A DNA stretch of 64,000 nt from Verrucomicrobiaceae bacterium (GTDB lineage Bacteria; Pseudomonadota; Gammaproteobacteria; Pseudomonadales; CAMLJR01). This document shows positions 15,073 through 38,457 of the stretch, piece after piece. Every line of letters begins with the position of its first letter. Position 1 is the stretch's first letter. The notes under the pieces were generated by a model. The model saw only the letters and a list, made by a program, of their open reading frames with translations, did not search any database and was not told where the DNA came from. The position numbers and the translations under genes are program-made. The DNA is taken from the NCBI GenBank assembly GCA_028293825.1, contig JAQGNY010000012.1, positions 1 to 64,000 on the forward strand, read 5' to 3'.

Positions 15073-15593
15073 AAGCTATGACAGCGTTATCTCAATCCTT
15101 GATATTGATTGCGGTGCTCACCATGAACAGTATTAATGCTCACGCCGCCGGTGCGCCGGCGTGGAAAGATCTTTCCGCCGAGCAGCAGCAATTACTCGGT
15201 GCGATGCAGCCGCGCTGGGATGAACTGCCGGCAGAGCAGCGCCAACAATTATTGCAGCGTGCTGAAACATTTAACGCGATGACACCGGAGCAGCGCCAAC
15301 AAGTGCAGGATCGCTTTCAGCGCTGGCAGGGTTTAGCGCCCGAGCAACGTGCAAAACTGCGCGAGCGTTTCGAGACATTTCGTAAATTACCGCCCGAACA
15401 ACAAACGGAAGTTCGCAAACGCTTTCAGTGGTTTCGCTCGCTGCCGCCGGAAAAACAAAAAGCACTGCGCGATAACTGGCAGGCGTTGACGCCGGATCAA
15501 CGGGATCAAATGCGCGAACGTTTTCGCACACTGGATGCGCAGCAGCGCGAACAATTGCGCGAGCGCTTAATGAATTTACGCAATTTGCGCTGA
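15069..15593 (+). CDS. DUF3106 domain-containing exported protein
   Basis: A 174-residue exported protein with a signal peptide (SLILIAVLTMNSINAHAA). It then has a run of short helical repeats built on L-x-P-E-Q-R (LPAEQRQQLL, MTPEQRQQV, LAPEQRAKLRERF, LPPEQQTEVRKRF, LPPEKQKALRDN, LTPDQRDQMRERF). This is the hallmark of DUF3106; its function is unknown. It overlaps the preceding gene by 4 nt (ATGA) and ends the sigma operon. Confidence 0.85.
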   Translation: MKAMTALSQSLILIAVLTMNSINAHAAGAPAWKDLSAEQQQLLGAMQPRWDELPAEQRQQLLQRAETFNAMTPEQRQQVQDRFQRWQGLAPEQRAKLRERFETFRKLPPEQQTEVRKRFQWFRSLPPEKQKALRDNWQALTPDQRDQMRERFRTLDAQQREQLRERLMNLRNLR

Positions 15594-33124: not shown

Positions 33125-33843
33125 TGCAAGTGCTGCTGCCGCTGAAAGAATTCGCCGCATCGAAACAGCGTTTATCCGGTGTGTTGTCTTCGATTGAGCG
33201 CGCGCGTTTGTTGCAATCGATGGTGGGCGATGTACTTGGCGTACTGACTCTGCAACGCGATATCGAGCGCATCGCTATTTGTTCGCGCGATCGTTCGGCG
33301 CAGTGGCTAGCCAATTATTATGGCGTCGATTTTATCGACGAAGACCGCGACTGCGGTGGCGATTTGAATGGCGCCGTCAATGCGGCGGTGCGCGATTTTG
33401 CCGCGCAGGGTTGCACCGATATTCTGGTTGCGCATGGCGATTTGCCATTGCTATCGGCGCAGGATTTATCGATGTTTTTGCGCGGCCACAACAGTGGTGG
33501 AGAACACGCGGTAACGATAGCGCCCGATCGTCGGCGCGGCGGCAGTAATTTATTGGCGTGGCGTCCGCTGCAAAAATTTCACGTGCAGTACGGTGTCGAT
33601 AGTTTCGCGCGGCACTGCGCACAGGCGCGGGCGATTGACGCGCAATTGACGATTTGCGATTTACCCGGTGCGCGTTGCGATATCGACGAGCCCGAAGATT
33701 TGTTGTTGATGCTGGCGCAAACCACCGACAGTGCCGCGCACAACACCGTTACTTTTCTGTACGAAAGCGGCATCGCCGAGCGGTTGCAGTCGTTGCAGCT
33801 CAGTGCGAATAACGCCGCCGGAGAAAATCATGAATGCGCCTGA
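33124..33843 (+). CDS. cofC: Phospholactate / phosphoenolpyruvate / 3-phosphoglycerate guanylyltransferase (CofC/FbiD family)
   Basis: Activates the F420 side-chain acid with GTP. The 239-residue product has the CofC start VLLPLKEFAASKQRLSG, an LLQSMVGDVLGVL helix, and DEDRDCGGDLNGAVNAA, followed by VAHGDLPLLSAQD. The acid it uses cannot be told from this reading: 2-phospholactate, phosphoenolpyruvate and 3-phosphoglycerate are all known for the family. Its ATG overlaps the cofD stop and its 3' end overlaps fbiC by 14 nt. Confidence 0.92.
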   Translation: MQVLLPLKEFAASKQRLSGVLSSIERARLLQSMVGDVLGVLTLQRDIERIAICSRDRSAQWLANYYGVDFIDEDRDCGGDLNGAVNAAVRDFAAQGCTDILVAHGDLPLLSAQDLSMFLRGHNSGGEHAVTIAPDRRRGGSNLLAWRPLQKFHVQYGVDSFARHCAQARAIDAQLTICDLPGARCDIDEPEDLLLMLAQTTDSAAHNTVTFLYESGIAERLQSLQLSANNAAGENHECA

Positions 33844-36325
33844 TGGTTTGATCCAACAGTTCGCCGAACAGTTATATCGCGGCGCAACATTGAGCGATGC
33901 GCAGGCGCTGCAATTATCCGCATGCGATGACACGGCGGCGCTAATGACAATCGCGGCGACGCTGCGCGATAGCGGTTTTCGCAATGTCGTTACTTATTCG
34001 CGCAAAGTATTTTTGCCGCTGACGCAACTGTGTCGCGATGTCTGTCACTACTGCACATTTGCACAAACGCCGCGCCATATCGACGCGCCGTATATGGCCA
34101 TCGACGCTGTGCTTGAGCAAGTAAAAGCGGCGGAAAAACTCGGCTGCAAAGAAGCATTGCTAACGCTCGGTGAAAAACCCGAATTGCGTTATCGAGTTGC
34201 GCGCGAAGCACTCGATGCCATGGGTTTTGCGACCACGCTCGATTACGTTGCCGCCGTGGCCGAGCGCATCGTGCAGGAAACCACGGTGTTGCCGCACATC
34301 AATGCCGGCACCATGGATTCTAACGAAATCACTAAGCTGCGCCGGGTGTCGGCGTCGATGGGCATCATGCTCGAATCCGCTTCGACACGTTTATGCGGCA
34401 AAGGTCAGCCGCATTACGGTTCGCCGGATAAAGACCCCGCTTTGCGTTTAGAAACAATGCGCCTTGCCGGCGAAGCCGCAGTGCCATTCACCAGCGGCAT
34501 TTTAATTGGCATTGGCGAAACACGGCGCGAGCGCATCGAAAGCCTGCTCGCTCTTCGCGATGTGCACGCGCGCCACGGTCATCTGCAAGAAATTATCGTG
34601 CAGAATTTTCGCGCGAAACCGAATACGTTAATGGCGCAGGCGCCCGAGCCCGATTTAACCGAATTGCTGTGGACCATCGCGGTGACGCGCTGCATTTTCG
34701 GTTCCGCTATGAGCATTCAAGCGCCGCCGAATTTAAGCCCGGGCGTATTGCCGCAATTAATTAGTGCCGGTATCAACGATTGGGGCGGTGTCAGCCCAGT
34801 TACGCCCGATTATGTAAATCCCGAGGCGCCGTGGCCGCATCTGGATAATCTCGCGCGCGAGACAGCCAGTACTGGAAAATTGTTACAGGAGCGGCTGACA
34901 ATTTATCCGGCGTATGCGCTGAATTATTCGCGCTGGCTCGATGCGGGATTGCATACAAAATTGCTCGATAGTATCGACGCAGAAGGTTTTCCGCGTATCG
35001 ATAATTGGGCGCCGGGTGAGCACGTGCCGCCGCCGGCTTTCGATTTGCAGCTATTGAATAAGCCATTAAAAAAATCGCCGCAAACAATCAGCGCGGATAT
35101 TCAAACCATCGTGCAACGCGCGCGCGCCGGCGAAAAATTGCCGGAAGAGCAGGTCGTGCGTTTGTTCCAGGCACGTGGCGATGATTTTGCGTATGTCGCG
35201 CAAGCCGCCGATGCATTGCGGCGCGAGGTGAATGGCAACGGCGTCGCTTACGTCGTCAATCGCAATATTAATTACACCAATATTTGTTATTTCAAATGTC
35301 AGTTCTGTGCATTTTCAAAAGGCAAGCTGAGCGAAAACTTACGTGGTCGTCCGTACGATTTGGCGCCGGAAGAAATTCAACGGCGCGTGCGCGAAGCGTG
35401 GTCGCGCGGTGCGACCGAAGTGTGCATGCAAGGCGGCATTCATCCCGAATACACCGGCCAAACCTATTTAAATATTCTCGCTGCAGTGAAAGAAGCGGAA
35501 CCGGAAATGCACGTGCATGCATTTTCGCCGCTGGAAGTTTGGCAGGGGGCGCAAACGCTTGGCGTTGGGCTTGAAGAGTTTTTATTGCGCTTGAAAGCGG
35601 CGGGCCTGGGCACGTTGCCGGGCACTGCGGCGGAAATTCTCGATGACGAAGTGCGCGCCGTTTTATGCGCCGATAAAATTCGCACCGACGAATGGTTGCA
35701 AGTGATCGAGACCGCGCATCGCATCGGTCTGCGTACGACCGCCACGATCATGTATGGCCATATCGAAAAACTCGAACACTGGGCGCGACATTTATTGCGC
35801 GTGCGCACGCTGCAGGAAAAGACTGGCGGCTTTACCGAGTTCGTGCCATTGCCATTCGTGGCCATGGAGGCGCCGCTATATTTAAAAGGTAAAGCGCGAC
35901 GCGGCCCGACTTTTCGCGAAGCGGTGTTGATGCACGCTGTTGCGCGGCTGGTATTGCATACGCAGATTTCGAATATTCAGGCGTCGTGGGTAAAAATGGG
36001 CGAGGCCGGTGTGGCCGCGTGTCTCGCCGCCGGCGCCAACGATATCGGCGGTACGCTGATGAACGAATCGATTACGCGCGCGGCCGGTGCCATGCACGGT
36101 CAGGAATTGCCGCCGGAAAATATGGATGCGTTGATTCGCAACTGTGAACGCATTCCCAGTCAACGCACCACGTTGTACGGCGAACCCGATGCTGCGCAAG
36201 TAGTGGCGTCATATAACGCGGACGTGCTCACCGATATTATTAATACGCCGGCGAAACGTTATGAGCGCAGCGAAAAGCGCGCTTTGGTGCGTCATGCCGA
36301 TCCGATTGTTATAGCGTCGAATTGA
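33830..36325 (+). CDS. fbiC: Fused Fo synthase (CofG-CofH)
   Basis: Makes the deazaflavin chromophore Fo from tyrosine and 5-amino-6-ribitylaminouracil with two radical-SAM domains. The 831 residues hold CofG first, with the C-x3-C-x2-C cluster motif in [10 protein letters not shown] (near residue 66), and CofH second, with [13 protein letters not shown] (near 490). Both cluster motifs are intact. The ATG at 33830 has a GGAG site and lies inside the cofC end. The fused form is the bacterial type; methanogenic archaea use two proteins. The stop is 7 nt before ung. Confidence 0.96.
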
Positions 36326-36332
36326 GCAGCCG

Positions 36333-37046
36333 ATGAGCGAAAAAACAATCAAGCGCGATCAGGTTAAATTGAACGAATCGTGGCTGGCGGTGATCGGCGA
36401 TGAATTCGAAAAGCCGTACATGACGCAATTGAAAGCGTTTTTACTGGCGGAAAAAAACGCCGGGAAAATTATTTATCCCGCTGCGGCAAATTGGTTTAAC
36501 GCACTCAATACCACGCCATTCGATCAGGTCAAAGTCGTGTTGCTCGGGCAGGATCCATATCACGGCCCGGGTCAGGCGCACGGTTTATGTTTCTCGGTAT
36601 TACCGGGTGTGCCATCGCCGCCATCGCTGGTAAATATGTTCAAGGAGTTAAACAACGATCTTGGCATTCCAATCAGCCGTCACGGTTATTTACAGCATTG
36701 GGCCGAGCAGGGCGTGTTGTTGTTGAACAGCGTTCTTACGGTGGAGCAAGCGAAAGCCGGTTCGCATCAAGGACGCGGTTGGGAAGCTTTTACCGACGCC
36801 TGTATCGCGCATTTAAATCGCGAGCGCGACGGCCTGGTATTTTTGCTGTGGGGTAGTTATGCGCAGAAAAAAGGTCAGTTGATCGATCGCGAAAAACATT
36901 TAGTGCTGGAGGCGCCGCATCCGTCGCCGCTGTCATCGCATCGCGGCTTCTTTGGCTGCAAGCATTTCTCGAAAACTAACACTTATCTTCAGCAGCGCGG
37001 CAACGATCCGATCGATTGGGCATTGCCGCCGCTAGCGGCTAATTAA
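36333..37046 (+). CDS. ung: Uracil-DNA glycosylase
   Basis: Family 1 enzyme that removes uracil from DNA for base-excision repair. The 237 residues carry the water-activating loop [18 protein letters not shown] (catalytic Asp near residue 74) and the Leu-intercalation loop [17 protein letters not shown]. It follows fbiC by 7 nt, so the two are probably on one message, though the functions are unrelated. No terminator is visible after it. Confidence 0.97.
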
Positions 37047-37143
37047 TTAGCGCGTGAATTACCGCCGAAACCCTTGTGGACGATCGGTCGGCGCGCTTTT
37101 CGCAAAGGCGCAGCGCCGAGTAAGCTGCATCCACTGGGTCGAC

Positions 37144-37552
37144 ACCGGGCCTGGATCGATTCTCTACTGACCCCGGTTCATTTCAAACAAACTTGAACTA
37201 ACGGCGAATAGAGCTAACCTCGCTCAGACCCGGCTCAGGTTGGCCGCAAGCAGAACCCATCTCGCTCAAACCCGGCCTAGTATTAATGCGAACAGAATTA
37301 GCCTCGCTTCCGGCCAACCTAAGTAAGTCGCAGACAGAATGGGGTTTATTTGAATTGAGCCGAGGTCTGCTCTGAATAGAACCAGCTTTGTGGCAAATAG
37401 AACCAGGCTCGTTGCCGATAGAAGCAGGTTTGTTGGGAATAGAGCCAGGTTCGTACGAATCCGATTTAGGTTTGCGGAAAACAGAACGAAGCTGGTTGTA
37501 AGCAGAACTAGCTTCGCTCGAGCCAAGCTCAGGTTGGCTGCCGACAAAATCG
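37144..37552. repeat. Array of about nineteen degenerate 21-bp tandem repeats
   Basis: Strict 21-nt phasing runs from about 37144 to 37552 with almost no length change. Units start at 37207, 37228, 37249 and so on to 37522. A typical unit is AATAGAACCAGGCTCGTTGCC; the conserved core is AGAACCAG followed by TTCGTT or TTTGTT. Units differ at many sites, so it is an old, decayed array. The minus strand can be read for about 90 codons as a heptad pattern (L-F-x-T-x-L-x), but the start would be TTG without a ribosome-binding site, so coding is doubtful. It lies between ung and the HDOD gene; the same span also contains the rest of this 574-bp gap, in which I see nothing else. Confidence 0.85.
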
Positions 37553-37620
37553 ATTGCGTGTTTCCTTGCTACCCTTTTTCTCGGGCGTTTGTTAATGCTT
37601 TTTTGATTGCGCGAACGCCA

Positions 37621-38457
37621 TCATTGCAAGAATGCCATCGCGGCTTCCATATCGGCGGACAGGTCTTCCACTTCACGCATATTGATATCGGACGATAAAC
37701 CGAGTCGATCGAACGCGCTGATTTGCGACCAATCCAACTCGTTATACGGGTGCTCGCTACCCAAATAACTTTGCAGATTGGCGACCATGACGACATCGGC
37801 GTAATCCACTTTCTTCACTTCGCGGCCGAAATTTAAATGCTCTTGCGGCACGATGATCAGGTCTTCGGGAAAGCTCCACGCTTCCAAAATGCGGCGACCC
37901 AATACCGGATGCAGCATGGCGATGAGGGTGTCGAGCGCACCTGGGTCTTTCAGTAAACGGCGATTGTCTTCGGCGTAGGTCAAAATCGGCAAGATGCCGA
38001 TTTGATGCACGATGCCGGCGAGTGTCGCCTGATCGGGTTTCAACTTGGTGTAATGCCGCGCCAGCGCGTGCGCAATGCCCGATACCTCAGTGCTGTGCGA
38101 CCACACTTGGCGCATGCGCTCGTCGACCACATCGGAGGTCGCCTGAAACATTTGCTGCATGGCGAGGCTGGTGGCCAGATTGCTTGTGTAATTGATGCCG
38201 AGACGACTGACCGCCATTTTCAAATCTTCGATCGGACGGCTCGCGCGCAGTAGCGGGCTGTTGGAAATCTTGACGATGCGCGCGGAAATGGCCGGATCGT
38301 TTTCGATGACTTTTGCCATCGTCGCGATATCGACATCGGGGTCGCTCGACACTTCGCGCACTTTTAGCGCTACTTCCGGTAGTGTCGGCAGTACCAGTTT
38401 GTCGTTGTCGAGAGCGTCGATAATCTCTTCGCTGATCTGCTCGATCATGTCACTCAT
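37621..38457 (-). CDS. HDOD-domain signalling protein
   Basis: A 278-residue single HDOD domain (about 20-220), a non-catalytic relative of HD phosphohydrolases common in gammaproteobacterial regulatory proteins. Features: LPTLPEVALKVREVSSDPD, NDPAISARIVKISNSPLL, SRLGINYTSNLATSLAMQQ. A short C-terminal acidic tail (LSADMEAAMAFLQ) follows. No output domain is attached. It is probably a signalling scaffold. It lies 72 nt downstream of ygfZ on the same strand. Confidence 0.88.
   Translation of the reverse strand: MSDMIEQISEEIIDALDNDKLVLPTLPEVALKVREVSSDPDVDIATMAKVIENDPAISARIVKISNSPLLRASRPIEDLKMAVSRLGINYTSNLATSLAMQQMFQATSDVVDERMRQVWSHSTEVSGIAHALARHYTKLKPDQATLAGIVHQIGILPILTYAEDNRRLLKDPGALDTLIAMLHPVLGRRILEAWSFPEDLIIVPQEHLNFGREVKKVDYADVVMVANLQSYLGSEHPYNELDWSQISAFDRLGLSSDINMREVEDLSADMEAAMAFLQ

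Follow-up and report, generated by a model that had tools for sequence, protein, structure and literature searches.

A drifted 21-bp tandem array between convergent genes is one of a family of intergenic arrays in its genome

The window, i.e., the whole analyzed stretch of 64,000 nucleotides, contains an ung-like gene for uracil-DNA glycosylase at 36333–37046 on the plus strand (Pfam UDG, 1.6e-19) and an HDOD-domain gene at 37621–38457 on the minus strand (Pfam HDOD, 5.1e-44), the conserved convergent partner of ung in relatives. The 3′ ends of the two genes face each other across a gap of 574 nt. The left portion of this gap (37047–37166) has no in-phase unit in the profile scan; it is followed at 37167–37544 by array 1, defined by its unit profile and periodicity and consisting of 18 head-to-tail units of 21 nt in a single register with zero indels. 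Positions 33731–36325 of the window hold an 864-aa ORF, which we take to be a fused deazaflavin (FO) synthase of the CofG/CofH type, presumably uncommon in this group.

The mean identity of array 1 at lags 21, 42, and 63 (region 37188–37559) is 0.475. In 2000 dinucleotide-preserving shuffles this identity averages 0.250 (sd 0.013) and never exceeds 0.297; in 300 shuffles, the best score at any period from 8 to 60 is 0.309. When the whole window is scanned by sliding, the array region has the top score (0.480, period 42), and the runner-up is a place near 15160 within an ORF (0.462, period 54). All units are in phase 0, and among the out-of-phase flank positions of the plus strand none exceeds the 99.9% level of random positions. 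Tandem-repeat analysis, proposed as a check in the first-pass annotation, thus bears out the strict 21-nt register claimed there; the annotated coordinates (37144–37552) and the estimate of about nineteen units are correct to within a unit, the count being 18 or, under an alternative extension rule, 19 (37163–37561).

The sequence of the units varies widely. Their match to the leave-one-out consensus ranges from 7 to 15 of 21 positions (18 units starting at 37188–37545, the last of which, with 7/21, lies outside the array as bounded here). In the left part of the array, identity is 0.59 at lag 42 vs 0.36 at lag 21; the four best-preserved units (37377–37460) show 0.70 at lag 21, and Tandem Repeats Finder detects only this middle (37375–37451, period 21, 3.7 copies). 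The core AGAACCAG...TTCGTT, initially described as conserved, holds for the middle units, but not as an array-wide core, the majority unit being CAGAACCAGGTTCGCTGCAAA. The array matches no standard element, as had been suggested: CRISPR is ruled out by the contiguous, strongly diverged 21-nt units without spacers, and Rfam gives one chance-level match under the gathering score in the array 1 region, and none at 11 further loci, where other arrays or modules lie.

Array 1 is one of 14 period-21 arrays in its genome (A1–A14), which have several unit sequences. The scan for periods of 21, 42, or 63 covered 1.19 Mb (the window and 59 further stretches), or 27% of the 4.34 Mb genome; with open-frame regions dropped, it left 13 arrays, to which one at the end of contig C20 is added. 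The last 19 stretches were mostly picked because a search pointed to them, while a blind sample of 20 contig starts (381 kb) contains one array. Array 2 was found by the array 1 profile in another convergent gap (contig C55, ~107040–107415), between genes for a pyridine-nucleotide oxidoreductase and a GntR/FCD regulator. Array 3 was found via a second profile (C18, ~133075–133515) and has a different unit, TTGGTTTGATATAGCTCGAGC. The unit profile is common to arrays 1 and 2, the units of A3 and A14 differ from it, and a further type, D, is dispersed. Higher-order periods of 42, 63, and 84 occur in the arrays. Four of the 14 (A4, A5, A9, A10) sit at contig ends and are hence cut short. Contigs end within D-type arrays at C16:1, C20:225018, C42:1, and C51:33698, so the arrays probably broke the assembly. 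One blastn match (L004) borders array 5. Several look-alikes were dropped: a small alanine-rich lipoprotein-like ORF (L126 and L171), a lysine/alanine-rich ORF (L159), regions that read as ORFs (L166, L246:12180–12640, and L248:12420–13140), and L128 with the blastn matches L002, L003, and L005–L008, which are due to chance or coding.

As 21 nt correspond to seven codons, one strand could encode a heptad-repeat protein; this had been considered for the minus strand, where a 93-aa ORF with a TTG start spans 37266–37547. However, the minus-strand frame then considered has two stops within the array, stops are present in every frame of arrays 1–3 (2–14 per frame in array 1), codon-position variability is at the chance level in all 12 arrays (p 0.23–0.95), and Pfam gives no family, only chance-level matches. 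The in-register inverted repeats described below are also unexpected for a coding repeat. A single stop-free run spans 0.87–0.91 of the region in A4, A9, A10, and A12; a crude codon-usage gene caller calls no gene over any of the 14 arrays. A weak sign of coding is seen in the D copies: in the two frames that are open there, the third position has the most differences (88/169/83 of 970 each, the pairs not being independent), the variable columns are distributed by codon position as 13/22/12 of 68 each (binomial p 0.04), and all indels but one preserve the frame. The coding reading is rejected on the stops in six frames, codon-position variability, and Pfam, and a heptad-repeat protein is hardly credible as an explanation of the arrays.

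Among 109 ung loci examined, 20 have an HDOD match, three of them non-syntenic, which leaves 17 relatives. The gap between ung and the HDOD gene measures −7 to 174 nt in 16 of these and 1025 nt in the remaining one; in G001, the only same-genus genome compared, it is 3 nt. The comparison with relatives proposed in the first-pass annotation was thus run, although the 3-nt gap in G001 leaves no orthologous array to compare. Because the gap is tight in relatives, the 574 nt were either gained here or lost elsewhere many times; judging by these gap lengths, array 1 appears to be a newcomer, inserted into an old tight convergent gap. The sole large gap among the 17 (L086:5682–6706) belongs to a Cellvibrionaceae MAG, and no period is flagged in it.

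Searches for the units gave few matches beyond the own genome. Profile R2, run against 293 genomes of the order, has matches with E ≤ 0.01 in three, i.e., in the own genome, in G185 (three to four short 21-nt units), and in G268 (no periodicity), with the reservation that strict filters were used for more than 40 genomes and weak matches may be lost. The D array is found in one of 244 genomes, the own one, and has no match in plasmid and phage collections. The A14 array has matches in 17 of 95 genomes at E ≤ 0.1, those in the 16 other genomes being only 18–41 nt long, with E 0.006 or weaker. In the 395 kb scanned of G001 and the 373 kb scanned of G018, no non-coding region has a best period of 21 or 42; one G018 region is flagged at 63/66/69, and 94% of it lies within an open frame. 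Sequence search is blind to arrays of unrelated units, hence absence elsewhere holds for the tested unit types and samples; for these, the arrays are absent from the relatives searched and seem to be lineage-specific. A literature search over titles and abstract openings, which is not proof of none in print, returned nothing resembling such arrays.

Two arrays of other kinds were seen at ung loci or in related MAGs. The 80 named ung loci (785 kb) contain one non-coding 21-bp array, in a Porticoccaceae MAG (L045:1527–1695); its ~eight near-identical units (GTTCGGGATGACATGTGCTAG) lie beside a common GGATC...TGACA-type palindrome and upstream of an ORF which we take to be lysyl-tRNA synthetase-like, and it was judged to be a different thing. 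A Pseudomonadales MAG (L049:1765–2269) has a tandem array of period 41 with 98% identity.

The gene setting of the arrays varies. Arrays 1 and 2 occupy convergent gaps; A3, A6, A8, and A14 are each flanked by a called gene, whose 3′ end faces the array, and by a 200-bp module; A4 sits between a contig end and the module; A13 lies between two gene starts, as called by the crude gene caller; and the other arrays are near neither a convergent gap nor the module, or at contig ends. The module stands 10–25 nt upstream of cassette-like ORFs on C52, with several in succession at C52:7183–9400 (L240); it also occurs on C18 (L170), C19 (L250), C34 (L242), C16 (L185), C49 (L243), C22 (L251), and C48 (L252), and a search of 95 genomes finds it in the own genome only (1/95). 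Its 3′ end appears to be attC-like. The cassette-like gene adjoining array 3 (L148:23–865) encodes a TIR domain protein of the CAP12/Pycsar type (Pfam 1.6e-26).

The arrays might accordingly be part of a cassette system, serving as marks or landing sites for gene cassettes preceded by the module, and in this they resemble integron cassette junctions (attC clusters without an integrase): five of the 14 (A3, A4, A6, A8, A14) lie within ~250 nt of a module, and four of these five show the order gene 3′ end, array, module, cassette ORF. However, no module lies near array 1 (the best match in the window has E 0.16 and is distant) or array 2, no array was detected at the modules on C49, C22, and C48, and the arrays themselves are not attC-like. 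The search for an integron integrase yields six sub-threshold TIGR02249 matches, the best with 53.6 bits vs a cut-off of 265, and sub-threshold matches are also present in all 14 control genomes. A role in such a system is therefore highly unlikely.

Folding was compared with arrays whose columns were permuted alike in all units, which keeps period and composition. In all 12 arrays, and for either strand, the real order folds better than the mean of 60 such shuffles, with z between −2.1 and −7.4; the observed energy is attained by none of the 60 permutations in 22 of 24 tests. The arrays carry an excess of in-register inverted repeats. Measured more simply, by the best dyad phase, symmetry is significant in nine of 12 arrays (0–3 of 200 permutations as good) and not significant in array 1 (62/200), A8 (26/200), and A4 (196/200). 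A dyad spacing of 10.5 bp is among the top four phases in nine arrays (A1, A3, A6, A7, A9, A11, A12, A13, A14), but this is no independent evidence, since a dyad in a periodic sequence implies another one 10.5 bp on. Covariation between paired columns is not convincing. None of the 12 arrays exceeds its permuted versions in A/T power at 10.5 bp, hence there is no sign of phased A-tract curvature, and phased curvature is rejected.

Strong folding on both strands, together with the location of several arrays at gene 3′ ends, array 1 lying between two such ends, would be expected if the arrays were transcribed as chains of RNA hairpins acting as an mRNA end, terminator, stabilizer, or small RNA. 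The folding excess, however, is alike on both strands and is also given by DNA symmetry; array 13 lies between two gene starts according to the crude gene caller; no intrinsic terminator is found in 36900–37800, where 1.4 are expected; and neither the Rfam matches nor the covariation of paired columns lends support. We consider this explanation rather unlikely.

The D copies allow array change to be followed. They align over the full length and, apart from places affected by contig ends, differ by segments of 21 or 105 nt; units of differing sequence substitute for each other in register. Thus, arrays gain and lose whole units in 21-bp steps. The sole exception is A8, where one nucleotide is inserted into a G run, so the register is not absolute. 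Minimum spanning trees of units give 130, 96, 126, and 104 substitutions for A1, A2, A3, and A14, respectively, or ~456 in total, with no register shift. The flanks of these four arrays contain no convincing out-of-phase unit, one flank position of A3 scoring 5.7 vs a random maximum of 4.8. For comparison, ten copies of the non-array 200-bp module in the same genome have 36 indels per 301 substitutions, 22 per 240 without three pairs aligned over only 22–139 nt, and 8 per 162 in the four cleanest pairs. Even the lowest of these rates predicts ~6 indels in array 1 and ~22 in the four arrays; spanning trees may overstate substitutions, at most twofold, in which case ~11 indels are still predicted for the four. 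This deficit in A1, A2, A3, and A14 supports selection on the register. The earlier observation that register is kept while sequence drifts therefore stands, and it fits the binding or structural role considered at that time.

Much the same picture would be produced by a selfish or neutral satellite, which grows and shrinks by slippage and unequal recombination, aided by hairpins, is spread by recombination, and serves nothing. Gains and losses of whole units, the higher-order periods, the presence of arrays in one lineage only, and the gap without an array in relatives all agree with such an origin, and inverted repeats favor slippage. What speaks against it is the lack of indels: recombination in unit steps leaves 1-nt indels in place, yet four highly diverged arrays show none, so that amplification would have to make substitution errors without making indels, or indels would have to be steadily purged. 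The satellite reading is tentative, though nearly as likely as that of protein-binding arrays, to which we return below.

Several known systems share some of these properties. REPs and BIMEs are short intergenic palindromes, sometimes in tandem clusters, with proposed effects on supercoiling, termination, or the ends of mRNAs (PMC3733652). The arrays resemble these elements and REPINs in forming short intergenic palindromes, sometimes tandemly clustered and dispersed within one genome, and the own genome encodes a Y1 transposase, a candidate RAYT or IS200-type enzyme (three PF01797 matches in two places). In contrast, REPs are discrete stem-loops of 20–40 bp that carry a GTAG or CGTC tag and lack strict periodicity, whereas the arrays comprise 8–20 abutting units at exactly 21 bp, without spacers and with a unit sequence that varies by array. 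Array 1 has no GTAG and no CGTC on either strand, and the other arrays have 0–5 and 0–2, respectively, near chance in most; array 1 folds better than permuted arrays, yet its single dyad phase is not significant.

Minisatellites (VNTRs) are likewise made of head-to-tail units, ~10–100 bp long, with higher-order periods and length change by whole units; the period here is 21 bp, and the D copies differ by gaps of 21 and 105 nt. The units of the arrays have, however, diverged much further than is common in minisatellites (Tandem Repeats Finder accepts only 3.7 copies in array 1), and unit sequences with no relation to each other share one period, i.e., the register outlasts the sequence. Iterons of plasmid and secondary-chromosome origins are direct repeats about two helical turns apart, cooperatively bound, conserved in sequence, and located beside a replication gene. 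The arrays share the spacing, but they are many and dispersed, and no replication initiator gene lies beside array 1, whose neighbors are ung and the HDOD gene, or beside array 2. REPs and BIMEs are thus nearest in setting, although array 1 lacks their tags, and minisatellites are nearest in form.

Two turns of B-DNA correspond to 21.0 bp. We propose, with a probability of roughly 40%, that array 1 is a member of a dispersed, lineage-specific family of DNA-level intergenic arrays whose register is kept at a pitch of two helical turns, with protein binding as the probable reason. This reading accounts most economically for the unit-wise length change, the in-register symmetry, and a register more durable than the sequence. 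The 21-bp units would diverge freely in sequence while the register stays and the length changes by whole units; the 21.0-bp pitch would keep equally spaced sites on one face of the helix; a candidate DNA-binding protein, binding cooperatively and probably as a dimer, could occupy the sites; selection would keep the register so that the sites stay on this face; and the result may be a patch of nucleoprotein in the gaps that separate transcription units. The step from selection to protein binding is our conjecture. Against binding, array 1 taken alone has no significant single dyad phase, the arrays are not conserved in relatives, and the unit sequences are so dissimilar from array to array that recognition of all of them by one sequence-specific protein is difficult to conceive.

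A protein-binding function could also take a form in which the 21.0-bp pitch and two-fold symmetry are the only conserved properties, the arrays scaffolding a symmetric nucleoprotein filament, for which the geometry of the DNA is the signal, with selection acting on the register and unit sequences drifting or being replaced. This variant is doubtful. If the register is indeed selected and the sequence is not, the arrays offer a natural experiment on whether geometry can be the reason why a bacterium retains a DNA element, and no sequence-based search would reveal them. If they are selfish satellites, they show clearly that a satellite in a bacterium can grow strictly by whole units, and their lack of small indels is then puzzling. 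As array 1 illustrates, behind one unusual repeat in a window there may be a whole family, and it takes a period scan to find it.

The search with A14 also points to four further A14-like places in the own genome (C40, C36, C11:70798–70935, and C18:42670). The one at C11:70798–70935 lies ~6.8 kb past the end of the window and is probably another array on the same contig.
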